Virus record (IMG/VR): IMGVR_UViG_3300017788_000210
Span: 1-21,339 of that record
Direction: 5' to 3' (one strand)
DNA: 21,339 nucleotides
Origin: a virus
The notes under the pieces are model-generated. The model worked only from the letters and a program-made list of their open reading frames with translations. It was not told the origin of the DNA and ran no database searches. This document shows, one piece after another, positions 1,318 through 21,339 of this stretch. A program made the translations under genes and the position numbers. Position 1 is the stretch's first letter; each line of letters opens with the position of its first letter.

Positions 1318-3387
1318 CTATTTTTTGATTTGCATACGTGCCGTGTTATTTGTGCTGTCGTTATCAGGCACACCATTAACGGCTGTTATAGTCAACACGT
1401 AGTCAGTTGGCAATGGCACGGGTGGTAAGCTCACATTGTAAACGCTGCCCATTCTTACACTTTTACCAACCTCAATACGATCAGCACGATTCCAAGTACC
1501 CGTGAAGCCACCAACAAGGCCGTGGTTTACCTTTATGCTGGTAATAACCACATTGCCTTTGTTATAAAAGGTATACCATATACGCACACGGTTAGCATCC
1601 AGCCACTCGTATCTGTCAATAGTTACACTTGCATCTAATCCTTGTGCGGGTGGGTTGACTAGTGTAATGTTTAGACCTGTGCTAATGGTGTTATCATTCT
1701 CATTGGTTTCCTTAATGACCATGTTAGGGTCGATTGTAAGTGAGAATTGACACACACCCGTTTGATTGTTCGGCAATCCAAATGGTGTTGTTTTAGTCAC
1801 TACCGTTTGGCCTTTTGGTATGGTCACATCACCGGTGTAAAATATAAACTTAGTACCATCTGGACGGGTAAACGTTAGATGCACAGTTGTAGTCACATCG
1901 CTAGTATGCACCTTGTCAAGATTAACGCTATAAGTCACGTTAACGCTACTGCCTTGCACAGCCGTTGGAAGTGTTGAGATGTTACCAAATAGGTTGTATT
2001 CAGCAACAGGCACAGGCACAGGGTCACCACCGTCTAAAGTCTTGGCAATGGTCACGGCATTGAACATGCTAACTACACCATAACCTAACTCTAAACTTTT
2101 ACCATTGACATCATACACGTAGCCGCCCGTTTTACGGCATGCTTGGCGTAGCACATCCGTTACCTGCGCTTCAGTCAAGGTAGGATTGGCAAGAATAACA
2201 CTTGCCGCTACACCCGCCATAACAGGGCATGAACACGATGTACCACTGAACGCAGTATAGTTGCTATCGGCCTTATAACCTGCAGCACCTGTGCGGTCGG
2301 TAGTGGGGCATGATGTGCCGGGAGCGGCTGCAAATGTCTTTGGCCCGTAGTTACTAAACGAAGCGCGTGCATTAGATTGATTCGATGCACCAACAGCATG
2401 CACCATAGGATAGATAGCTGGAGCTTGCGTGAAGTTTGGATTGGTTTGATTACCTGAACTTGCAAAGATTGGTATGCCCTTACCGCCACGCCCTATTGTT
2501 TTAGCTTGCGTTAATGCGTTTTGAAACAGTGGATATGCATTTGGATTGCTGCCGCCCCAACTCATTGAGATAGCAAGGCAGTTAGGGTTAGCTATTGCCT
2601 TGTTAGCCGCACGTGTTACTATAGTGTCCGATGTTTGAAAGCCACCACTACTAGTTGAACCGTAACCGATGTGCAGGAATTGCACCTTTAGCTTATTGTT
2701 TCCAAGTGAGGAAACACCTATGCCGTTATCCGTTGCCGCGCATATAAGTCCGCTGCATGGTGTGCCGTGCTTTTCATACTCACTCACTGGTCTTACATCG
2801 GCAGAATCCGTAACGCAGTTCCATGATGTATCACTAATGCGGCCAACTAAATCTTCATGGTCTACATCGCATGCAATATCCAGCACAGCCACCTCACCAT
2901 ATGCAGCACCGTCTATTAAAGACCATGCTTCTGCAGCTTGTTGATTAGGTAAGTGCCATTGCCCGGTATAAGTGTAGGCATCTCCGTCCATTGCGTATGG
3001 CTGTATGTAATCAGGCTCTACACTCGTAAATAGTTTGCTATCCATTAACGCTATGTAGAACTCATTGAACGCAGCGAAGGCAGGTACTTCTACGAATAGC
3101 GTATTAGTCAAGTTAAAGACCTCAGTAACTACTATTTTTTTCTTTGCTAAATACGCACGCGCTGCGTCTAAATCAGAGGCAACAAGTATGGCAAGACCTG
3201 TAGCAATTTGGTCTAGTGATCCATCAACTTCATTTACCTGTGAAACCTTAGTATGGTCGGGAGTAACACGCTCCTTGTCTTCAAACACGATGATGTTAAA
3301 CGGCTCATGCACCGCAATGACATTAGCCTTTGTCTTGTTCTTGTTAAAGGATGCTTTATCCTTAAACTTAACGCTGTTTATTTTCAT
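1318..3387 (-). CDS. Subtilisin-like (S8) serine protease with two CARDB-like domains
   Basis: A 689-aa protein. Residues about 1-130 look like an I9-type prodomain (FVEVPAFAAFNEF, then SVEPDYIQP) with no signal peptide. The subtilase domain spans about 140-450. It has Asp170 in VAVLDIACD, His207 in KHGTPCSG, oxyanion Asn313 in ASSGNQ and Ser384 in SGTSCSCP. The usual D-[ST]-G at the catalytic Asp is D-I-A here, and the core is unusually Cys-rich. Two beta-sandwich repeats follow (about 465-580 and 590-689), each with a CARDB-like end (KETNENDNTIST; VPDNDSTNNTA). The start overlaps the stop of the XkdF-like protease by 4 bases (ATGA), so the two are translationally coupled. Subtilases are not standard head-module genes. 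It could be virion-borne, help maturation, or act on the host; the catalytic family is sure, the role is not. Confidence 0.88.
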   Translation of the reverse strand: MKINSVKFKDKASFNKNKTKANVIAVHEPFNIIVFEDKERVTPDHTKVSQVNEVDGSLDQIATGLAILVASDLDAARAYLAKKKIVVTEVFNLTNTLFVEVPAFAAFNEFYIALMDSKLFTSVEPDYIQPYAMDGDAYTYTGQWHLPNQQAAEAWSLIDGAAYGEVAVLDIACDVDHEDLVGRISDTSWNCVTDSADVRPVSEYEKHGTPCSGLICAATDNGIGVSSLGNNKLKVQFLHIGYGSTSSGGFQTSDTIVTRAANKAIANPNCLAISMSWGGSNPNAYPLFQNALTQAKTIGRGGKGIPIFASSGNQTNPNFTQAPAIYPMVHAVGASNQSNARASFSNYGPKTFAAAPGTSCPTTDRTGAAGYKADSNYTAFSGTSCSCPVMAGVAASVILANPTLTEAQVTDVLRQACRKTGGYVYDVNGKSLELGYGVVSMFNAVTIAKTLDGGDPVPVPVAEYNLFGNISTLPTAVQGSSVNVTYSVNLDKVHTSDVTTTVHLTFTRPDGTKFIFYTGDVTIPKGQTVVTKTTPFGLPNNQTGVCQFSLTIDPNMVIKETNENDNTISTGLNITLVNPPAQGLDASVTIDRYEWLDANRVRIWYTFYNKGNVVITSIKVNHGLVGGFTGTWNRADRIEVGKSVRMGSVYNVSLPPVPLPTDYVLTITAVNGVPDNDSTNNTARMQIKK

Positions 3388-10655: not shown

Positions 10656-11173
10656 TATCTTTTGTTTAACAGTAATCGTTGTTCAATGCTTTTTACGTAG
10701 CCGTCTATTAGTCTATCCTTGTATTCGTCCCATGTATCATCGATTGCTTCGCCATAGTAATTGATGCCTTGTATTCCTTTTTCACCAATACTCTTTGCAA
10801 TAGCAAACGCTGCGCTCTTTATATTGCTTTCTGTTGACTTAATAAATTCGCCTTGTCTATTGCGTAACTTTAATCGCTTAATGCGTATCCAGTCTTCAAT
10901 AGGCTTAACAGGTGGCATCTTCGCTCCCGGCTTTCTACCGAGTTCTATCACATCTGCATACTTGCCTGCCTCATCATTTGACACGGTGAAGTCAATAGTC
11001 GGCTTGTTGTATCTAAATTTTAGATTATAGTAAAGCGACTTAGACAAATGCCCAGATGCAAATCTGTTGACCGTCTTACCTCGCACCCTTCTTTTAATGC
11101 GCAGGTTAGATTGCGCACGCTCTATCACGGCAAGCGCATATTCATTCAATATGTCCTCAAATGCATTAGCCAT
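10655..11173 (-). CDS. Tail completion protein (HK97 gp10-like)
   Basis: A 172-aa basic protein. The N-terminal helix (FEDILNEYALAVIERAQSNL) is followed by SGHLSKSLYYNLKF and the signature YADVIELGRKPGAKMPPVKPIEDWIRIKRL (about 72-101). This matches the 'Y-A-x-x-I-E-x-G-x-K-P-G' plus 'P-P-V-x-x-I-x-x-W' pattern of HK97 gp10-type and related head-tail or minor tail proteins. Arg/Lys-rich surfaces fit contact with DNA or the portal side. Start and stop overlap the flanking genes by one base each (TAATG), so it is part of the co-translated tail operon. Confidence 0.65.
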   Translation of the reverse strand: MANAFEDILNEYALAVIERAQSNLRIKRRVRGKTVNRFASGHLSKSLYYNLKFRYNKPTIDFTVSNDEAGKYADVIELGRKPGAKMPPVKPIEDWIRIKRLKLRNRQGEFIKSTESNIKSAAFAIAKSIGEKGIQGINYYGEAIDDTWDEYKDRLIDGYVKSIEQRLLLNKR

Positions 11174-13943: not shown

Positions 13944-14276
13944 TTACAGGTCTGAATGTACCTGAATAATAACCTTTTCACCACCGGCACCGGTTACTTC
14001 TTGTCTTTCTACATATCCGCGTTTTTTACCTTTGGTCTTTAGTCTAAATATGATTGCCGCTATTTCGCCATCTTCTATCGCTTCCATCAATTTAATTTCA
14101 GCACGATCGGTAGCGCGTTCATCTTCTATTTGCAAATCTTCAGTTAGTTCAAACTCTTTTATGTACTTATCTGCAGTGTGCCAGTCGCATTTTAGTCTGC
14201 GTGCTATTTCGGATATGTAACCACCCGAACCTTGTATAGCCTTTTTAATATCGGATTTTTGGAAATTGTAAGCCAT
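13944..14276 (-). CDS. Terminase small subunit-like protein
   Basis: A 110-aa protein from the ATG at 14276 (MAYNFQKSDIKKAIQGSGG); an in-frame ATG 39 bases upstream would overlap the endonuclease gene. Residues about 5-50 are a helix-turn-helix (ISEIARRLKCDWHTADKYIKEF). A charged helix follows (EDERATDRAEIKLMEAIEDGE), then AAIIFRLKTKGKKRGYVERQEVTG. 'A-x-x-KL-x-x-AI-x-x-G-x-x-x-A-x-x-F-x-LK-T-x-G-K-x-R-GYVER-x-E' is a well-known pattern of small terminase or terminase-like HTH proteins, which bind the packaging site and recruit TerL. TerL here lies about 7 kb away on the other strand. The gap to the endonuclease stop is 4 bases. Confidence 0.75.
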   Translation of the reverse strand: MAYNFQKSDIKKAIQGSGGYISEIARRLKCDWHTADKYIKEFELTEDLQIEDERATDRAEIKLMEAIEDGEIAAIIFRLKTKGKKRGYVERQEVTGAGGEKVIIQVHSDL

Positions 14277-14280
14277 TGTT

Positions 14281-14883
14281 TTAGAGTATTGATAGTTGTC
14301 TTTTGCGTTTTTCAATAAACAAATTGTTCTTGAACATAGCAGTATTATATATCTTATTGATAAACTTTTCTGCTTCCTGGTGTGTTTCTTTTTGATTGTA
14401 CATTTTGGTTAGGTAACCAAACAAAAAGGGTATTTCCTTAATAAGGAATTCGCTAATCTTGTTGTGTATTTCTGAACCGCGTAACTCAAATGACTTATAC
14501 TTCAAATTTAGTTTATAGAAGTATTCAGTATCATACATAGTGTATTTACGCTCTCTCTGTTTATATTGTCTTTTTGCTTTAGGTGATAACGGTGTTTGCC
14601 AACCACCACCCCCTGTAACCAAATTCATAACATGTTCAAGTTTTAAAAAAGCAGCATTGACATGTTTTGCTTCTGCCGCTAAAACTTCTTTGCGCGTGGA
14701 ATAATGACTAATAATTTCTTTACTAAAGTTTTCCCAGCCATGTTTTTCAATCTTTCTACGAAGTAATGTGCCTGAACCCCGATAACCATCCTTGATATTA
14801 TCGGTACTATGCACACCAATGTACACGCTATTATCAAGATTGCATGTTACTTTGTATAGATAGTTGTATTTCTTTTCCTTCAT
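14281..14883 (-). CDS. GIY-YIG family homing endonuclease
   Basis: A 200-aa protein. The N-terminal nuclease core has YLYKVT (8-13; a variant of the GIY strand), SVYIGVHST (19-27; YIG), GYRGSGTLLRRKIEKHGWENF (33-53) with the catalytic-region Arg, and Glu71 in AAEAKHV. The core ends near residue 90 at NLVTGGGGW. The C-terminal about 100 residues are Lys/Tyr-rich and probably bind DNA. It looks AT-richer than its neighbours, which fits horizontal acquisition. It lies as a free-standing gene between a 46-aa protein and TerS, with 3- and 4-base gaps, and so has entered the operon without breaking a gene. Terminase genes are frequent neighbours of such endonucleases. Confidence 0.85.
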   Translation of the reverse strand: MKEKKYNYLYKVTCNLDNSVYIGVHSTDNIKDGYRGSGTLLRRKIEKHGWENFSKEIISHYSTRKEVLAAEAKHVNAAFLKLEHVMNLVTGGGGWQTPLSPKAKRQYKQRERKYTMYDTEYFYKLNLKYKSFELRGSEIHNKISEFLIKEIPFLFGYLTKMYNQKETHQEAEKFINKIYNTAMFKNNLFIEKRKRQLSIL

Positions 14884-15481: not shown

Positions 15482-15875
15482 ATTCTCTTATTCGTTTTAA
15501 TGCTCTATGTATAGCTGTGCGCAAGTAGCTGTATGGTATACCTGTTTCAGCACTTAGTTCTTTGTAGTCGAAGTCGGGTTTACTGTATAGACGCAACAGG
15601 ATTGCATCAAATTCGTTTAGCCGCCCGATTGCATTGTATAGATACTCACCGTCTATGAATGCACCTATCCATGTTTCATCTTGTTTAGTGTCTTCAACCT
15701 GCCTTTCTACGTGAAGCTCGTAGTATTTGCGATACTTTATAGCGTAGTCACTGCGTGCACTGTGCCAGCTAAGCCAAATGGCTCTGTTAATGTATGCTTC
15801 TACCTTGCCCCGGCACACTATATCTTCAACATCTTGATTTGGCCTATCCATTAAACGTGCTAAGACCTCATGCAA
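15417..15875 (-). CDS. Sigma-factor-like regulator, first gene of the late operon
   Basis: At least 152 residues. The C-terminal part (about 100-140; FDYKELSAETGIPYSYLRTA, then IHRALKRIREYVK) is a region-4-like helix-turn-helix. The N-terminal part (EAYINRAIWLSWHSARSDYA) resembles sigma region 2. The first usable start is TTG at 15875. The same frame stays open to 15974 and encodes residues that continue the homology (KHYNAWLDKASRLAHDKQ, then GSDLLHEVL), so the real start probably lies upstream at a non-ATG codon. Being the first gene of the minus-strand operon, it is a good candidate for directing late transcription. Alternatives are an ECF-like or DNA-binding regulator without polymerase contact. 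Confidence 0.6.
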   Translation of the reverse strand: MHEVLARLMDRPNQDVEDIVCRGKVEAYINRAIWLSWHSARSDYAIKYRKYYELHVERQVEDTKQDETWIGAFIDGEYLYNAIGRLNEFDAILLRLYSKPDFDYKELSAETGIPYSYLRTAIHRALKRIREYVKLQRALAHSTREIEHMQKM

Positions 15876-16911: not shown

Positions 16912-17323
16912 AGTAACACCACCGACTAGAACACAAGCTGCGTACATACGCAAGCACATTGAGACCATGCCCTTTCACACCATGCGAAATAACCTACAGG
17001 TGAACCCGCACACAATGTACATCTGGGTGAAAATGATATACAAGCCTGAACAGTTTATGGTATATACTGACGAAGGGCCACAGCTACATAATCACTACCT
17101 TGTTAGCCTTGACAGATTCAATTACATCGTGAGCTTTAACGTAGGTGTGGAGCATGAGACCATTCAGTATTGCGAGCATCAGGTAGGTTTTGATTACGAG
17201 GTAAGCAAGTTAGGGTACTGGGAGTTTAACCACCTGCGCCATAACGTGCCGACTATTGCCATTAAGACCGATGCTAACTACGTGTCTAACTTCTGGGCAA
17301 CAACTAAACTTTGGCACGAATGA
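16904..17323 (+). CDS. Hypothetical protein with N-terminal HTH-like segment
   Basis: A 139-aa protein. Residues about 8-48 (RTQAAYIRKHIETMPFHTMR, then NPHTMYIWVKMIYKPE) look like a helix-turn-helix: an 'N-L-x-V-N-P-x-T-x-x-x-W' turn as in phage regulator HTHs. The remainder is beta-rich with many aromatic and His residues (LVSLDRFNYIVSFNVGVEHE; WEFNHLRHNVP) and no recognised motif. It overlaps the XRE gene by 8 bases and ends in an ATGA overlap with the VRR-NUC gene. The function is unknown. Confidence 0.6.
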   Translation: MNEVTPPTRTQAAYIRKHIETMPFHTMRNNLQVNPHTMYIWVKMIYKPEQFMVYTDEGPQLHNHYLVSLDRFNYIVSFNVGVEHETIQYCEHQVGFDYEVSKLGYWEFNHLRHNVPTIAIKTDANYVSNFWATTKLWHE

Positions 17324-17682
17324 AGCACGAGGAAAGCAAGATTCAGCAACGCTGTGTGGACTGGTTTAGATACTCATTCCCTCGCGTTTTAATCGCTTCC
17401 TTTCCTAATGGTGTGTACATAGGTGGTACACCTGCGCAAAGAGCAAGACGCTGGAACCTGTTGAAGGCTGAAGGTGCTATGCCGGGTATGCCTGATTTGA
17501 TGATCGCAATGAGTAGTGGGCCATACCATGCGCTGTTCATCGAGATGAAAACCGAGAAAGGTAAACTATCGGACACACAGAAAATCGTTCACGCACAGCT
17601 TATCAATGCAGGTTACTGCGTCAAGGTGTGCAGGTCATTTGAAGAATTCACACAAACAATTAAAATTTATTTAGAGCAATGA
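17320..17682 (+). CDS. VRR-NUC domain nuclease
   Basis: A 120-aa protein from ATG at 17320 (MKHEESKIQQRCVDWFRYSF). A TTG three codons upstream is less likely because the ATGA overlap is the operon's usual junction. The motifs of a stand-alone VRR-NUC are in order: Glu/Gln near the start (EESKIQQ), FPNG (28-31), GAMPGMPDLMI (52-62) with Asp59, FIEMKTEKGKLS (73-84) with Glu75 and Lys77, and Gln87. This is a PD-(D/E)XK-type metal-dependent nuclease. Small phage VRR-NUC proteins usually resolve branched DNA during replication or recombination. Neighbouring replication genes fit this. Confidence 0.85.
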   Translation: MKHEESKIQQRCVDWFRYSFPRVLIASFPNGVYIGGTPAQRARRWNLLKAEGAMPGMPDLMIAMSSGPYHALFIEMKTEKGKLSDTQKIVHAQLINAGYCVKVCRSFEEFTQTIKIYLEQ

Positions 17683-18116: not shown

Positions 18117-18136
18117 ATATAGTTTGACTATATTTG
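18106..18136 (+). promoter_or_regulatory. Bacteroidetes-type promoter for the replication genes
   Basis: TTTG (18106-18109) and TATATTTG (18129-18136, perfect TAnnTTTG) are separated by exactly 19 bases. The -33 element lies inside the end of the tail-anchored protein gene. Transcription should begin near 18143, about 100 bases before the initiator ATG, giving a long structured leader. Confidence 0.7.
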
Positions 18137-18140
18137 CAAC

Positions 18141-18232
18141 GCTCCTCAGAATGAAAACATTTTTAAATCCCACCATTACCGCATTGCCATAGCACTTTCG
18201 TGCGCTGGGGAGCCTTTGTGTGTAGTGGTGGG
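18141..18232 (+). ncRNA. Structured 5' leader, possible pseudoknot
   Basis: Two long-range helices can form. Helix A pairs GCTCCTC (18141-18147) with GGGGAGC (18207-18213), 7 bp with one G-U. Helix B pairs CCCACCATTAC (18169-18179) with GTAGTGGTGGG (18222-18232), 11 bp with one G-U. Their order A-B-A'-B' makes a pseudoknot, or two alternative states. A perfect small hairpin GCAC-TTTC-GTGC (18192-18203) lies between them. Helix B ends 10 bases before the initiator ATG, so it could control initiation or transcription. I recognise no known riboswitch family. Likely a cis-regulatory RNA of the initiator gene. Confidence 0.55.
18151..18192 (+). CDS. Possible 13-aa leader peptide
   Basis: ATG at 18151 to TAG at 18190-18192 encodes MKTFLNPTITALP. 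It starts inside the pseudoknot loop and its last codons cover the 5' arm of helix B, so ribosomes on it would open that helix. Evidence is only position and the A-rich context before ATG; it may be chance. Confidence 0.25.
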   Translation: MKTFLNPTITALP

Positions 18233-18242
18233 TATTTGGCCT

Positions 18243-18944
18243 ATGAGAGAATCAACTGTCTTTTATAGATCGTTTTACGAAGCGATTAAAGAACTTGATG
18301 CAGATACACAAGCACAAGTCTATTCTGCCATATTTGAATATGCCTTGAACTTTAACGAGGTTGAAGTTAAGGGTGTGGCTAAGACTGTATTTACCCTAAT
18401 CAAACCCCAACTGGATGCTAACCTAAAGCGATACGAGAACGGGACTAAAGCAAAGGTGAAGCAAGTCGTAAGCAAACAGGAAGCAAAACCGAAGCAAGAT
18501 AGAAGCAAGGTGGAAGCTAATGTAAATGTAAATGATAATGTAAATGGTAATGAGAATGTAAATCATAATCAGAATGATAATGTTTCAAGGTCGCGCTTTC
18601 GCGCTCCAACGTATGATGAGATATTGAATTTTATGAAAGAGAAAAATGGATTAGCTAAAAACCTTTGGACTGATGCCAAAGTAGTAACCGAGGCTAAGGC
18701 ATTCTTTAACCATTACGAAAGCAACGGGTGGATGGTAGGGAAAAACAAAATGAAAAATTGGGAAGCTGCCGTGCGCAACTGGATGAACAACAACTCTAAA
18801 TTTGAAACTCAAAAAATAAATACCAATGCAAAACAACCAACTACAACAGCAGAACACATTGCTAAAGCTGAAGCACTTTTCCGCGATGCAGTCGCTATCA
18901 GTCGAGCACGCGATGAAGCAAGACAAGATAGCACTACTTCGTAA
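18243..18944 (+). CDS. Replication initiator-like protein (DUF6291-like N-terminus)
   Basis: A 233-aa protein from ATG at 18243 (MRESTVFYRSFYEAIKELDA). An upstream in-frame ATG at 18216 would lie inside the leader hairpin. Residues 1-65 match the 'ESTVFYRSFYEAI...YSAIFEYALN...TLIKPQLDANLKRYENG' pattern I associate with DUF6291. Residues about 68-92 are Lys/Gln-rich, and 93-114 alternate Asn with other residues. Residues about 118-185 (APTYDEILNFMKEKNGLAKN, then FNHYESNGWMVGKNKMKNWEAAVRNWM) are a helical domain seen at the ends of phage replisome organisers. The linker is encoded by the iterons and AT-rich tract described separately, as the lambda O gene carries its own origin. Its role as initiator is inferred from this and from neighbours. 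Confidence 0.7.
   Translation: MRESTVFYRSFYEAIKELDADTQAQVYSAIFEYALNFNEVEVKGVAKTVFTLIKPQLDANLKRYENGTKAKVKQVVSKQEAKPKQDRSKVEANVNVNDNVNGNENVNHNQNDNVSRSRFRAPTYDEILNFMKEKNGLAKNLWTDAKVVTEAKAFFNHYESNGWMVGKNKMKNWEAAVRNWMNNNSKFETQKINTNAKQPTTTAEHIAKAEALFRDAVAISRARDEARQDSTTS
18448..18524. repeat. Seven 11-bp iterons (AAGCAA-type) inside the initiator gene
   Basis: AAGCAA starts at 18448, 18459, 18470, 18481, 18492 and 18503, and a variant AAGCTA at 18514: exactly 11 bp apart. A further in-phase AAGCGA lies at 18426. Eleven is not a multiple of three, so the hexamer falls in all three codon phases in turn; protein-level repetition cannot explain it. All sites face one side of the helix, as expected for initiator-binding iterons. 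Confidence 0.75.
18519..18582. repeat. AT-rich hexamer repeat (AATNNN), possible unwinding element
   Basis: About ten units of AAT-G/C-NN in frame with the gene encode Asn at every second residue. It is AT-rich and sits against the last iteron. It could be the DNA unwinding element, a flexible linker, or both. Confidence 0.6.
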
Positions 18945-19515
18945 ACTTGACCGAACCACCACGAAGATTAAAATCATGGAGCTGGTTACGCGATGTACCC
19001 AACTGCTCAATGTGCAGAATAACATGAACGCACTGCAGATAGAATTCTGTGCTGAGAACATCCTAGATAAGATGTGGATGTATAGTCTTGAAGACATTCA
19101 GTTGTGTTTAGATCGTGGTGCTATTGGTGCATACGGTACGATATACAACCGCATCGACCCGGCTACTATCCTTGCATGGTTTCCACTTTATGACCAGCAA
19201 CGCCAAACCATAAGCGAAGCGATGAATGAAAATGCAAAGCAGCAAAACAACATCTATGAAATGTTTCAACATCCGCAGGTGCTGGACGCTATCCAACAGG
19301 CAGCGGATAAGTTGAAGATAGAAGAAGCCCCGGCACAGGAGGCAAAGCGTGTCACACCGTCACGCCTTGAACAAATGCTAATGGATGAATACGATGCGCT
19401 GCCTTCATGGGATAACGACATGCGCTTTCGTGTGTATAGCAACAGACCTTACCAGTTCACTGAGTACAGGAAGGAACGCTACAAAGAATTGATAGAACAA
19501 GAAAGCGAATACTGA
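18913..19515 (+). CDS. Replication-associated protein, DUF6633-like
   Basis: A 200-aa protein from ATG at 18913 (MKQDKIALLRKLDRTTTKIK). The frame is open to an ATG at 18826, but that start would overlap the initiator gene by 119 bases, against 32 here. Helical blocks include LQIEFCAENILDKMWMYSLE, DIQLCLDRGAIGAYGTIYNR and ILAWFPLYDQQRQTI. The 'm-y-L-x-D-I-x-L-C-L-x-R-x-x-x-G-x-Y-G-x-x-Y-x-R-I-D-x-x-x-I-x-x-W' stretch resembles a family (DUF6633-like, from memory) found next to phage replication genes in Bacteroidetes. It may be a helicase loader or primosomal partner of the initiator; this is inferred. The stop overlaps the methyltransferase start (TGATG). Confidence 0.5.
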   Translation: MKQDKIALLRKLDRTTTKIKIMELVTRCTQLLNVQNNMNALQIEFCAENILDKMWMYSLEDIQLCLDRGAIGAYGTIYNRIDPATILAWFPLYDQQRQTISEAMNENAKQQNNIYEMFQHPQVLDAIQQAADKLKIEEAPAQEAKRVTPSRLEQMLMDEYDALPSWDNDMRFRVYSNRPYQFTEYRKERYKELIEQESEY

Positions 19516-20537
19516 TGACACACGGTTCTTTATTTAGTGGCATAGGTGGCTTTGATTTAGCTGCCGAATGGATGGGTTGGGAAAACAAGTTTCATTGCGA
19601 GTGGAATGAGTTTGGGCAACGTGTGCTTCACCATTACTGGCCTGATGCCGAATTATTCACCGATATAACTAAAAGCAACTTTACAAAATATGCAAACAGA
19701 ATTGATGTTCTCACAGGAGGATTCCCTTGTCAACCCTACTCATCCGCAGGAAAGCGACTTGGCAAAGAAGACGAACGCCATCTATGGCCTGAGATGTGTC
19801 GCGCAATTAGAGAGATTAAACCAAGTTGGGTCGTGGGCGAAAACGTTCGCGGCCTTATTAGTTGGAATGGAGGGTTGGTATTCGAAGAGGTGCAAGCTGA
19901 CTTGGAAGCTGAAGGGTACGAAGTACAACCGTTCTTACTTCCAGCTTGCGGTGTCAACGCTCCCCACAGAAGGGATAGAATCTGGTTTGTTGCTTCTAAC
20001 TCCAACAACAAGGGAGGAAGTAATGGACTTGGACAAGTTCAAGGCGAGAATGGAGAAATATCCCAATGGAACAACGATGCCGAATTTAGCAACACAAGTG
20101 ATGGGGCTTCTTCCGACTCCAACAACCCAAGAACCAATGTCGGAGTGCAGGATAAAGAATGGCAGAAGGGAGACGGCATCAGGGGATTCGCACAGTCTAA
20201 ATCTGGGCAAACTTGCGGGAATGGGGATGCTACCAACACCAACGGCACAACTCACAAAACACGGACACACGGAACAATATTGGAACAACAGAATTGGGAA
20301 AAGGCAAATGGATTTATCAATGTGGAATGCAGAAACAAATGGCAAAACTTCCCAACTGTCTCCCCAATTTGTAATGGAGATGATGGGCTTTCCGACCGAT
20401 TGGACTCTATTACCTTTTCTAAATGGAGAAACGAATCAATCAAAGCAGGAGGCAACGCAATAGTCCCCCAAGTAGTTTATCAAATATTTAAAGCAATAGA
20501 ACAGCATGAAAGACTACGACAAGCAAAAAGAGATTGA
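19515..20537 (+). CDS. C5-cytosine DNA methyltransferase (Dcm-type)
   Basis: A 340-aa protein. Motif I is GSLFSGIGGFDLA (4-16). Motif IV is TGGFPCQPYS (67-76) with catalytic Cys72. Motif VI is VGENVRGL (107-114). Motif VIII is HRRDRIWFVA (151-160). An Asn/Ser/Gly-rich target-recognition region spans about 165-270. Motif X near the end (SIKAGGNAIVPQVVYQIFKA) completes the family set. It methylates C5 of cytosine in a sequence-specific way, most likely to protect phage DNA from host restriction; no cognate nuclease is adjacent, so it appears to be an orphan. The recognition region shares its bases with a long ORF in the +1 frame. It lies between replication genes and small ORFs that lead to TerL. 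Confidence 0.95.
   Translation: MTHGSLFSGIGGFDLAAEWMGWENKFHCEWNEFGQRVLHHYWPDAELFTDITKSNFTKYANRIDVLTGGFPCQPYSSAGKRLGKEDERHLWPEMCRAIREIKPSWVVGENVRGLISWNGGLVFEEVQADLEAEGYEVQPFLLPACGVNAPHRRDRIWFVASNSNNKGGSNGLGQVQGENGEISQWNNDAEFSNTSDGASSDSNNPRTNVGVQDKEWQKGDGIRGFAQSKSGQTCGNGDATNTNGTTHKTRTHGTILEQQNWEKANGFINVECRNKWQNFPTVSPICNGDDGLSDRLDSITFSKWRNESIKAGGNAIVPQVVYQIFKAIEQHERLRQAKRD
19690..20463 (+). CDS. Overprinted ORF inside the methyltransferase (+1 frame)
   Basis: A 257-aa ORF lies entirely within the methyltransferase gene in the +1 frame (ATG 19690, TAG 20461-20463). It reads like a real phage family: GSWAKTFAALLVGMEGWYSK and RCKLTWKLKGTKYNRSYFQL (about 48-87) are followed by repeated LLPTPTT/MLPTPTA segments. 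The end is GKTSQLSPQFVMEMMGFPTDW (about 223-243). 'LPTPTxxD...LSPxFVxxMMGFPxxWT' is a pattern I recall in phage methyltransferase-associated proteins. The conserved enzyme motifs VI to X in frame 0 lie over these blocks. Translation is not shown: there is no obvious separate promoter and the ATG has only a generic A-rich context. It may be a true second product or a by-product of frame-0 conservation. Confidence 0.4.
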   Translation: MQTELMFSQEDSLVNPTHPQESDLAKKTNAIYGLRCVAQLERLNQVGSWAKTFAALLVGMEGWYSKRCKLTWKLKGTKYNRSYFQLAVSTLPTEGIESGLLLLTPTTREEVMDLDKFKARMEKYPNGTTMPNLATQVMGLLPTPTTQEPMSECRIKNGRRETASGDSHSLNLGKLAGMGMLPTPTAQLTKHGHTEQYWNNRIGKRQMDLSMWNAETNGKTSQLSPQFVMEMMGFPTDWTLLPFLNGETNQSKQEATQ

Positions 20538-20850: not shown

Positions 20851-21084
20851 ATGAGTAACTACACAATGCAAGAGGGACAGTTCACCCTATTTAAGAACAC
20901 AAAGACAACCAACAATGCACCTGAATATACGGGTGAGATTATGGTCAACGGAAAGAAGATGCGCCTAGCTGCATGGGTAAAAGAAGGCAAGAGCGGTAAG
21001 TTCTTTAGTGGCAAGATGAGTGAGCCGCTAGTTAAACGTGATGAAGTAAACGAATCACATGGCACGGGCGATTTGCCGTTCTAA
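20851..21084 (+). CDS. Small DUF736-like protein with SSB-like C-terminal tip
   Basis: A 77-aa protein. The first 50 residues form a beta-rich unit (EGQFTLFKNTKTTNNAPEYT, then GEIMVNGKKMRLAAWVKEGK), similar in style to DUF736-like proteins: 'G-x-F-T-L-F-x-N...P-x-Y-x-G'. The C-terminal end GTGDLPF resembles the acidic amphipathic tip (DDDIPF) by which single-stranded DNA-binding proteins recruit partners. A role with ssDNA or a partner of replication is therefore possible, but the core is too short for a full OB fold by eye. The stop overlaps the TerL start (TAATG). Confidence 0.5.
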   Translation: MSNYTMQEGQFTLFKNTKTTNNAPEYTGEIMVNGKKMRLAAWVKEGKSGKFFSGKMSEPLVKRDEVNESHGTGDLPF

Positions 21085-21339
21085 TGATTACATACCTGCC
21101 TAAACAGAATGAAGCATTGCGCGTGCTGGGTAACTCACACCCGGCACGTGTCGTTCTTTTCGGTGGCGCAGCAGGTGGATCAAAATCTTTTATAGGATGC
21201 GCATGGCAGATAAGTCGAAGGTTCAAGTATCCAGGTACACGTGGGTTAATAGGTCGAAGCAAACTTGACACGTTAAAAAAGACCACGCTAAAAACATTTT
21301 TTGAAGTAGCGCACATGATGGGTTTAGCACCTAATGAGC
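21084..21339 (+). CDS. Terminase large subunit, N-terminal part (runs off the window)
   Basis: Only 85 codons are present. The start MITYLPKQNEALRVLGNSHP leads into VVLFGGAAGGSKSFIG (23-38), the Walker A (P-loop) of a packaging ATPase. GTRGLIGRSKLDTLKKTTLK follows, the 'R-G-x-x-x-R-x-x-x-x-L-x-x-t' stretch usual just after it. TerL packages DNA by ATP hydrolysis and cuts it. The Walker B and nuclease domain would lie beyond the window. The start overlaps the previous stop by one base (TAATG). TerL is on the plus strand, whereas TerS is on the minus strand about 7 kb away. Confidence 0.85.
   Translation, partial: MITYLPKQNEALRVLGNSHPARVVLFGGAAGGSKSFIGCAWQISRRFKYPGTRGLIGRSKLDTLKKTTLKTFFEVAHMMGLAPNE

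Follow-up and report, generated by a model that had tools for sequence, protein, structure and literature searches.

Does the gene at positions 18243–18944 of IMG/VR virus record IMGVR_UViG_3300017788_000210 carry, within its own coding sequence, the replication origin that its product would recognize? The window, by which we mean the whole 21,339-nt stretch analysed (positions 1 to 21,339 of that record), was first interpreted from its letters, and this sequence-only reading described a row of short repeats beside an AT-rich tract in the gene and likened the layout to lambda ori. To our knowledge, almost no metagenomic phage has a known origin.

An 11-bp array and an A+T-rich tract within a DUF6291 gene

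Six copies of AAGCAA start at 18448, 18459, 18470, 18481, 18492, and 18503, in exact 11-bp steps, and AAGCTA at 18514 is the seventh, closing unit (Table 1). An AAGCGA at 18426 is in phase with the array two steps upstream, the unit between them (18437) being GAACGG; all of these positions had been given correctly to the base in the sequence-only reading. No further pair of AAGCAA at 11-bp distance was found anywhere in the window. Because 11 is not a multiple of 3, the hexamer takes all three codon phases (1, 0, 2, 1, 0, and 2 for the six AAGCAA units). TRF reported the 11-bp array together with an adjoining period-6/18 repeat, which is the AT-rich repeat tract proposed earlier; its A+T content is 78%, compared with 61% for the whole gene and 57% for the window, and its Asn codons are AAT in 11 of 11 cases, versus 5 of 17 in the rest of the gene.

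Table 1. Positions of the array, its host gene, and associated features in the window
Feature	Position	Strand	Basis
Outlying in-phase unit, AAGCGA	18426..18431	+	Letters; same place in most close relatives
Iteron array, AAGCAA x6 closed by AAGCTA (18514–18519)	18448..18519	+	Letters
A+T-rich tract with hexamer/18-mer repeats, presumed DNA unwinding element	18519..18582	+	TRF, A+T content, AAT codons
Presumed initiator gene, 233 aa (DUF6291 N-domain, linker, C-domain)	18243..18944	+	Pfam, PHROG, AlphaFold
C-terminal domain, aa 117–191	18591..18815	+	tblastn; common to phage proteins with a helicase or helicase-loader gene next
Candidate helicase-loader-like gene, overlapping the 3′ end of the presumed initiator gene	18913..19515	+	Adjoins the array gene in close relatives

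A run of at least six AAGCAA at 11 bp arose in 5 of 20,000 synonymous-codon shuffles of the window gene that preserve its protein. The sequence-only reading had proposed autocorrelation against such shuffles as a check, and with 2,000 shuffles the array has a lag-11 self-similarity of 32/44 against 23.0 expected (p 0.001) and a lag-22 p of 0.0005, all of these shuffle values being conservative, since the array has itself shaped the protein that the shuffles preserve.

The encoded protein matches PF19808 (DUF6291) at aa 4–74 with 70.7 bits (gathering cut-off 27.2) and phrog_15768, which has no functional label, at aa 1–211 (E 1e-42). An AlphaFold model (m734852003e07, pLDDT 79) has a confident helical N-domain (aa 1–68) and a folded C-domain, and its low-confidence middle (linker aa 92–115) is the translated array and tract. 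No solved relative was found in a PDB fold search with this model, nor a known DNA-binding fold for the N-domain; with an N-domain predicted to be all-helical and no solved relative, the DNA-reading domain of the protein stays putative.

Relatives of the C-terminal domain are followed by a gene annotated as a DnaC-like helicase loader in a Porphyromonas phage, as a DNA primase/helicase in a Flavonifractor phage, and as a DnaB-like helicase in Vibrio phage Seahorse, and in vB_RanS_PJN03 a DUF6291-type gene is followed by a primase/helicase gene. Family and gene neighbours together suggest that 18243–18944 codes for an initiator. The product of the overlapping gene, 18913–19515, matches phrog_35728, which lacks a functional label, and no labelled Pfam or PHROG family. 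A lambda P fold was considered for it and is not claimed, the match being weak (Z 6.5 over 74 residues, 2.7 Å) and tied with AAA+ lid domains.

The DNA letters of array and tract are constrained in close relatives

Among 48 relatives, 46 are readable across the linker (the N-part is absent from L041 and L043), giving 39 distinct linkers including that of the window. Read by eye, 38 of the 39 carry four or more perfect AAGCAA copies in an uninterrupted 11-bp series, with spacers that vary; the exception, L037, keeps three AAGCAA. Codons were counted in the 35 linkers that match a protein-defined motif and compared with the rest of the same genes, and these counts come from related sequences and are hence not independent. 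Within the array, Lys is AAG in 69/70 cases (231/595 elsewhere), Gln is CAA in 70/70 (160/234), and Ser is AGC in 64/64 (92/437); we read the 35 GCA and 35 GCT counted for Ala as GCA at the first position (35/35) and GCT at the last (35/35). Within the tract, Asn is AAT in 389/389 cases (342/639 elsewhere) and Asp is GAT in 63/63 (195/255). The codon bias is confined to the array and the tract, and the DNA letters are under constraint in both parts. The original argument that the constraint acts on DNA rather than on protein is thus borne out by the three codon phases, the fixed codons of array and tract, and the excess over shuffles. The 60 bp 3′ of the array are richer in A+T than the 60 bp 5′ of it in 89 of 115 arrays.

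Almost every array carrier examined is a phage replication protein

We scanned the collection for four AAGCRA hexamers at 11-bp steps and found at least 120 matches; a spacing control at 12 bp also gave at least 120, AAGCRA at 10 bp gave 69, and a scrambled hexamer, ACAGRA, at 11 bp gave 37. Raw match counts are no test of specificity, because the ACAGRA control matches and a 10-bp class exists, and because the 11- and 12-bp AAGCRA scans and a scan for AACCAA each reached at least 120. Among the 120 11-bp AAGCRA matches listed, 97 lie in ORFs of 150–350 aa and 7 in no ORF. A Pfam scan covered 103 proteins, namely the window's own and 102 distinct ORFs of 110 aa or more that carry an array among the matches listed, and placed 70 of them in DUF6291 and four in DnaB_2 (PF07261), a domain not found in the window protein at E 0.1. 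When 20 of the 33 carriers outside DUF6291 were examined singly, 19 matched a replication-labelled PHROG (DnaD-like helicase loader, replication initiation protein or O-like, primosomal protein, or replisome organizer), and the twentieth, L086, matched the window's own PHROG. Of the array carriers that we looked at, nearly all are thus phage replication proteins, with the tandem repeats inside the ORF, in agreement with the earlier proposal of iterons nested in an initiator gene.

We rejected the idea that AAGCAA is a universal phage iteron: the scrambled ACAGRA control also matched replication initiators with perfect 11-bp repeats, and other cores occur within DUF6291 genes. In the 10-bp AAGCRA class, 40 of 50 scanned proteins are DUF6291; L337, L338, L344, L349, L369, and others have such 10-bp arrays in replication-type proteins and form a second spacing class, also of about one helical turn. 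One DUF6291 gene (L454, 347 aa) holds a 30-unit run of the 11-bp array from about codon 68.

The 11-bp period is kept while the repeated letters change

For a period test, the N-domain was the sole criterion for choosing genes, and for each gene we determined the lag between 5 and 25 that most exceeds protein-preserving codon shuffles (200 per gene, the 21 lags uncorrected). With N-domain profiles that were built from array carriers, and with relatives that are not independent samples, the best lag was 11 or 22 in 27 of 32 DUF6291 genes without near-copies from 80 loci on viral contigs (Fisher p 1e-27 against the control), in 21 of 46 distinct DUF6291 genes from 62 loci in named bacterial genomes (p 4e-15), and in 20 of 35 distinct DnaD-like GWIKLHR proteins from 43 loci (p 5e-17). 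The control set comprised 250 other phage ORFs, out of 451 distinct ones from 600 drawn of 905, and its best lag was 11 or 22 in five. A lag-11 p of 0.02 or less was found in 28 of the 46 genes from bacterial genomes and in 9 of the 250 control ORFs, and 40 of the control ORFs reached p 0.01 or less at one lag or another. In the positive control, lambda O, the test recovered the known iteron spacing as lags 23 and 24; no lag signal came from TP901-1 rep, which is annotated 'replication protein, experimental'. Two cultured phages are also carriers, Riemerella phage GRNRAP2 (lag-11 p 0.008) and Nitratiruptor phage NrS-2 (lag-11 p 0.004, its best single lag being 23).

The units repeated at 11 bp are AAGCAA or AAGCGA, AACCAA, AACCCC, and CAATCAA in DUF6291 genes, and ACAGAA, ACAGCA, and others in DnaD-like genes. 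Whatever the core, A+T-rich sequence lies 3′ of nearly all arrays, and the protein linkers differ accordingly. Since both unit and linker change at a kept 11-bp period, what stays constant is a single turn of the DNA helix and not the peptide, and the linker is a passenger. The comparison of spacing among related phages that had been suggested at the outset thus came out as envisaged, the 11-bp step being kept while the linker protein changes, with the refinement that AAGCAA is one of several cores and that the constant is the 11-bp step. Neither of the two outcomes that the sequence-only reading had named as refuting was observed: codon shuffles seldom produce such arrays, and homologues preserve the spacing with altered linkers.

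A probable origin nested in its own initiator gene

We consider it highly probable that the array and the adjoining tract are a replication origin nested in its own initiator gene, 18243–18944, at which iteron binding leads to melting and helicase loading. We infer binding by the window protein, melting, helicase loading, and origin activity along the following lines. Copies of the initiator would occupy the 11-bp iterons at intervals of one helical turn, hence all facing the same side of the DNA, and the bound initiators would form a filament or a wrapped complex. This complex would melt the adjoining A+T-rich tract, and the replicative helicase would be loaded through the C-terminal domain of the initiator, the 18913–19515 product, or both, with the protein linker being written by the DNA that the origin requires.

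Published accounts of lambda ori, a type found in lambdoid and Stx phages, place iterons and an A+T-rich tract in the middle of gene O, and initiator-binding iterons beside an A+T-rich tract in mid-gene are likewise the layout proposed for the window (PMC7466680, PMC8508860). For the iterons of Stx phages, synonymous recoding with an unchanged protein is reported (PMC7466680). In lambda a helicase-loader gene lies next to O, and the distances between repeats are not a constant multiple of 3. The four 18-bp iterons of lambda stand 20–24 bp apart, whereas the window has at least seven short cores in one-turn 11-bp steps, and no sequence relation was found between lambda O and the window protein. 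SPP1 oriL has direct repeats and an A+T-rich unwinding element within gene 38 that are bound by gp38, and, compared by description, it resembles the window in having both inside the initiator gene (PMC6316719). The likeness to lambda ori drawn in the sequence-only reading therefore holds for layout and extends to SPP1 oriL. The genes of DnaD-like replisome organizers of GWIKLHR type resemble that of the window in having, at the corresponding position, 11-bp arrays with A+T-rich sequence behind them, but differ from it in N-domain and in repeat units (ACAGAA, others). Plasmid iterons are usually longer and lie outside the rep gene. The adjoining of direct repeats and an A+T-rich element is nonetheless described for iteron plasmid origins as it is found here (PMC4980987).

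The best reading is a one-turn-iteron variant of the lambda/SPP1 type of origin, lying within the initiator gene. The kind is already established by lambda ori and SPP1 oriL. The new elements are an 11-bp step of one helical turn that passes through every codon phase, its occurrence in initiators whose N-domains differ, cores that turn over at a constant period, and the proposed role of DUF6291. A literature search, mostly of open-access journals, found no paper on DUF6291 and none on 11-bp iterons in such genes.

Four other explanations were weighed. An initiator or a repressor might bind the array as an autoregulatory operator that controls the operon, with the true origin elsewhere. Operator binding and origin binding look alike in the letters, and plasmid initiators often bind their own operator. 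Nevertheless, we think this most unlikely, because the array lies in mid-gene and adjoins a tract in which every Asn codon is AAT, a layout that is that of the lambda and SPP1 origins. Operator and origin roles may also occur together at the array.

A packaging (pac/cos) or other terminase-related site is a very slender prospect for the window, although arrays do occur beside terminase-like genes (labels by reading). G007 has, besides the array in its DUF6291 gene, a second one at 1323–1383 (in L588) just upstream of a small-terminase-like gene, and in L128 an intergenic run of five AAGCAA at 11 bp (10887–10925) stands just before a large-terminase-like gene. The same array can thus stand outside the initiator gene, a second refinement of the original proposal, and these two may be either packaging sites or additional origins; two origins are reported for SPP1 (PMC6316719), which compares with the two arrays of G007. 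The window array, however, is not at a terminase gene (by reading, there is a terL-like start near 21,086 and an HTH ORF at 13,944–14,315), nearly all of the classified loci have their array in a replication protein, and 14 of the 15 long contigs searched have a single array place, G007 having two.

It is equally hard to credit a neutral minisatellite, that is, functionless 11-bp units spread by slippage. Tandem repeats are common, as the abundance of matches at the 12-bp control spacing and the 30-unit run of L454 illustrate. However, the spacers of the controls are nearly identical, with mean mismatches of 0.13 for 12-bp AAGCRA (20/120 matches listed at 0.4 or more) and 0.12 for scrambled ACAGRA (3/37), whereas those of 11-bp AAGCRA have diverged around kept cores (0.45; 91/120 matches listed); the 10-bp AAGCRA class has a mean of 0.36 (31/69). 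Neutral growth within a gene should also favour periods divisible by 3, and the unit sequence turns over while the period is kept.

Least probable of all is a protein-level repeat, with selection for a flexible, basic Lys/Gln/Ser/Ala linker and the DNA pattern as its side effect. Translation of the array, and the basic low-complexity linker kept in close relatives, would fit this view. However, the choice of codons is fixed nowhere but in array and tract, AACCAA, AACCCC, and ACAGAA units write quite different linkers at the same 11-bp step, and the period is lost in codon shuffles. Codon counts, control scans, and unit turnover led us to reject both the protein-only and the neutral-repeat readings.

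If array and tract are an origin, as we favour, one stretch of DNA is under two codes, with the origin dictating the protein linker, and DUF6291 acquires a proposed function. Many viruses that are unrelated to one another share the 11-bp spacing, also when their repeat letters and encoded proteins are not alike, and the fixed 11-bp period combined with a codon-shuffle test offers a direct, alignment-free way to call an origin and its initiator together.

A pre-array motif may accompany the choice of core

We classed 81 DUF6291 genes (78 from two N-domain sets, the window's, and those of two cultured phages) by core, as AAGC (34), AACC-type (22), AACCCC (4), CAATCAA (2), or none (19). A GG[RKAS] motif precedes the array in 2/34, 22/22, 4/4, and 0/2 of the four array classes, respectively, and is also found in 17 of the 19 genes without an array. 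The predicted pairing of motif and core was fixed before a fresh scan for four AACCAA units (at least 120 loci), in which the motif was present in 17 of 17 distinct DUF6291-like carriers among the matches listed and in none of the 71 remaining AACC carriers, many of which are of GWIKLHR type; a GG motif occurs in 5 of 66 AAGCRA carriers, one of which (L095) has a different GG. On the N-domain tree only three independent pairs fall on supported branches, about two for and none against, and the coupling of core and motif is not significant. As motif and array are adjacent in the DNA, cassette exchange alone could couple them.

These observations suggest a joint reading that we advance tentatively, with somewhat more doubt than conviction: one-turn 11-bp iterons would be a general origin signature of tailed phages across unrelated N-domains, and a pre-array motif would read an exchangeable core, the two forming a self-contained, swappable specificity cassette. 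In DUF6291 proteins, AAGC, AACC, and AACCCC would be read by a plain Lys-rich, a KGGRP, and a GAxxGKxGGRP segment before the array, respectively, such that assembly reads the spacing and the motif reads the letters. If so, sequence would be enough to call origins in thousands of uncultured phages.

Genes without arrays, GC skew, and neighbouring genes

The 19 DUF6291 genes without an array include a Bacteroidota group (Muribaculaceae/Prevotella/Bacteroides), and no such repeat was found in the stretch examined around the genes of this group. Eight Bacteroidota DUF6291 genes (L550, L554, L556, L562, L565, L567, L568, and L575), coding for 185–194 aa, have neither an 11-bp array nor an A+T-rich linker, and are followed by a gene of about 275–296 aa; they possibly have a different role. 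GC skew does not mark the array: its minimum in the window is at 15,875, where gene direction flips, and among relatives G003 disagrees and the minimum of G002 is about 1.7 kb off.

The intergenic segment before the presumed initiator gene (18118–18242) contains TATATTTG, which we take to resemble a Bacteroidota promoter element. Upstream of the initiator gene lies a VRR-NUC domain nuclease (17311–17682; PF08774), and elsewhere in the window are a C-5 cytosine DNA methyltransferase (19515–20537; PF00145, E 3.5e-44) and an ORF resembling single-strand DNA-binding proteins (20851–21084; phrog_18154, E 3e-8). On the minus strand, by reading, a GIY-YIG endonuclease-like ORF (14281–14883) sits beside the HTH ORF, and an ORF for a 689-aa subtilisin-type protease-like protein (1318–3387) lies among late genes.
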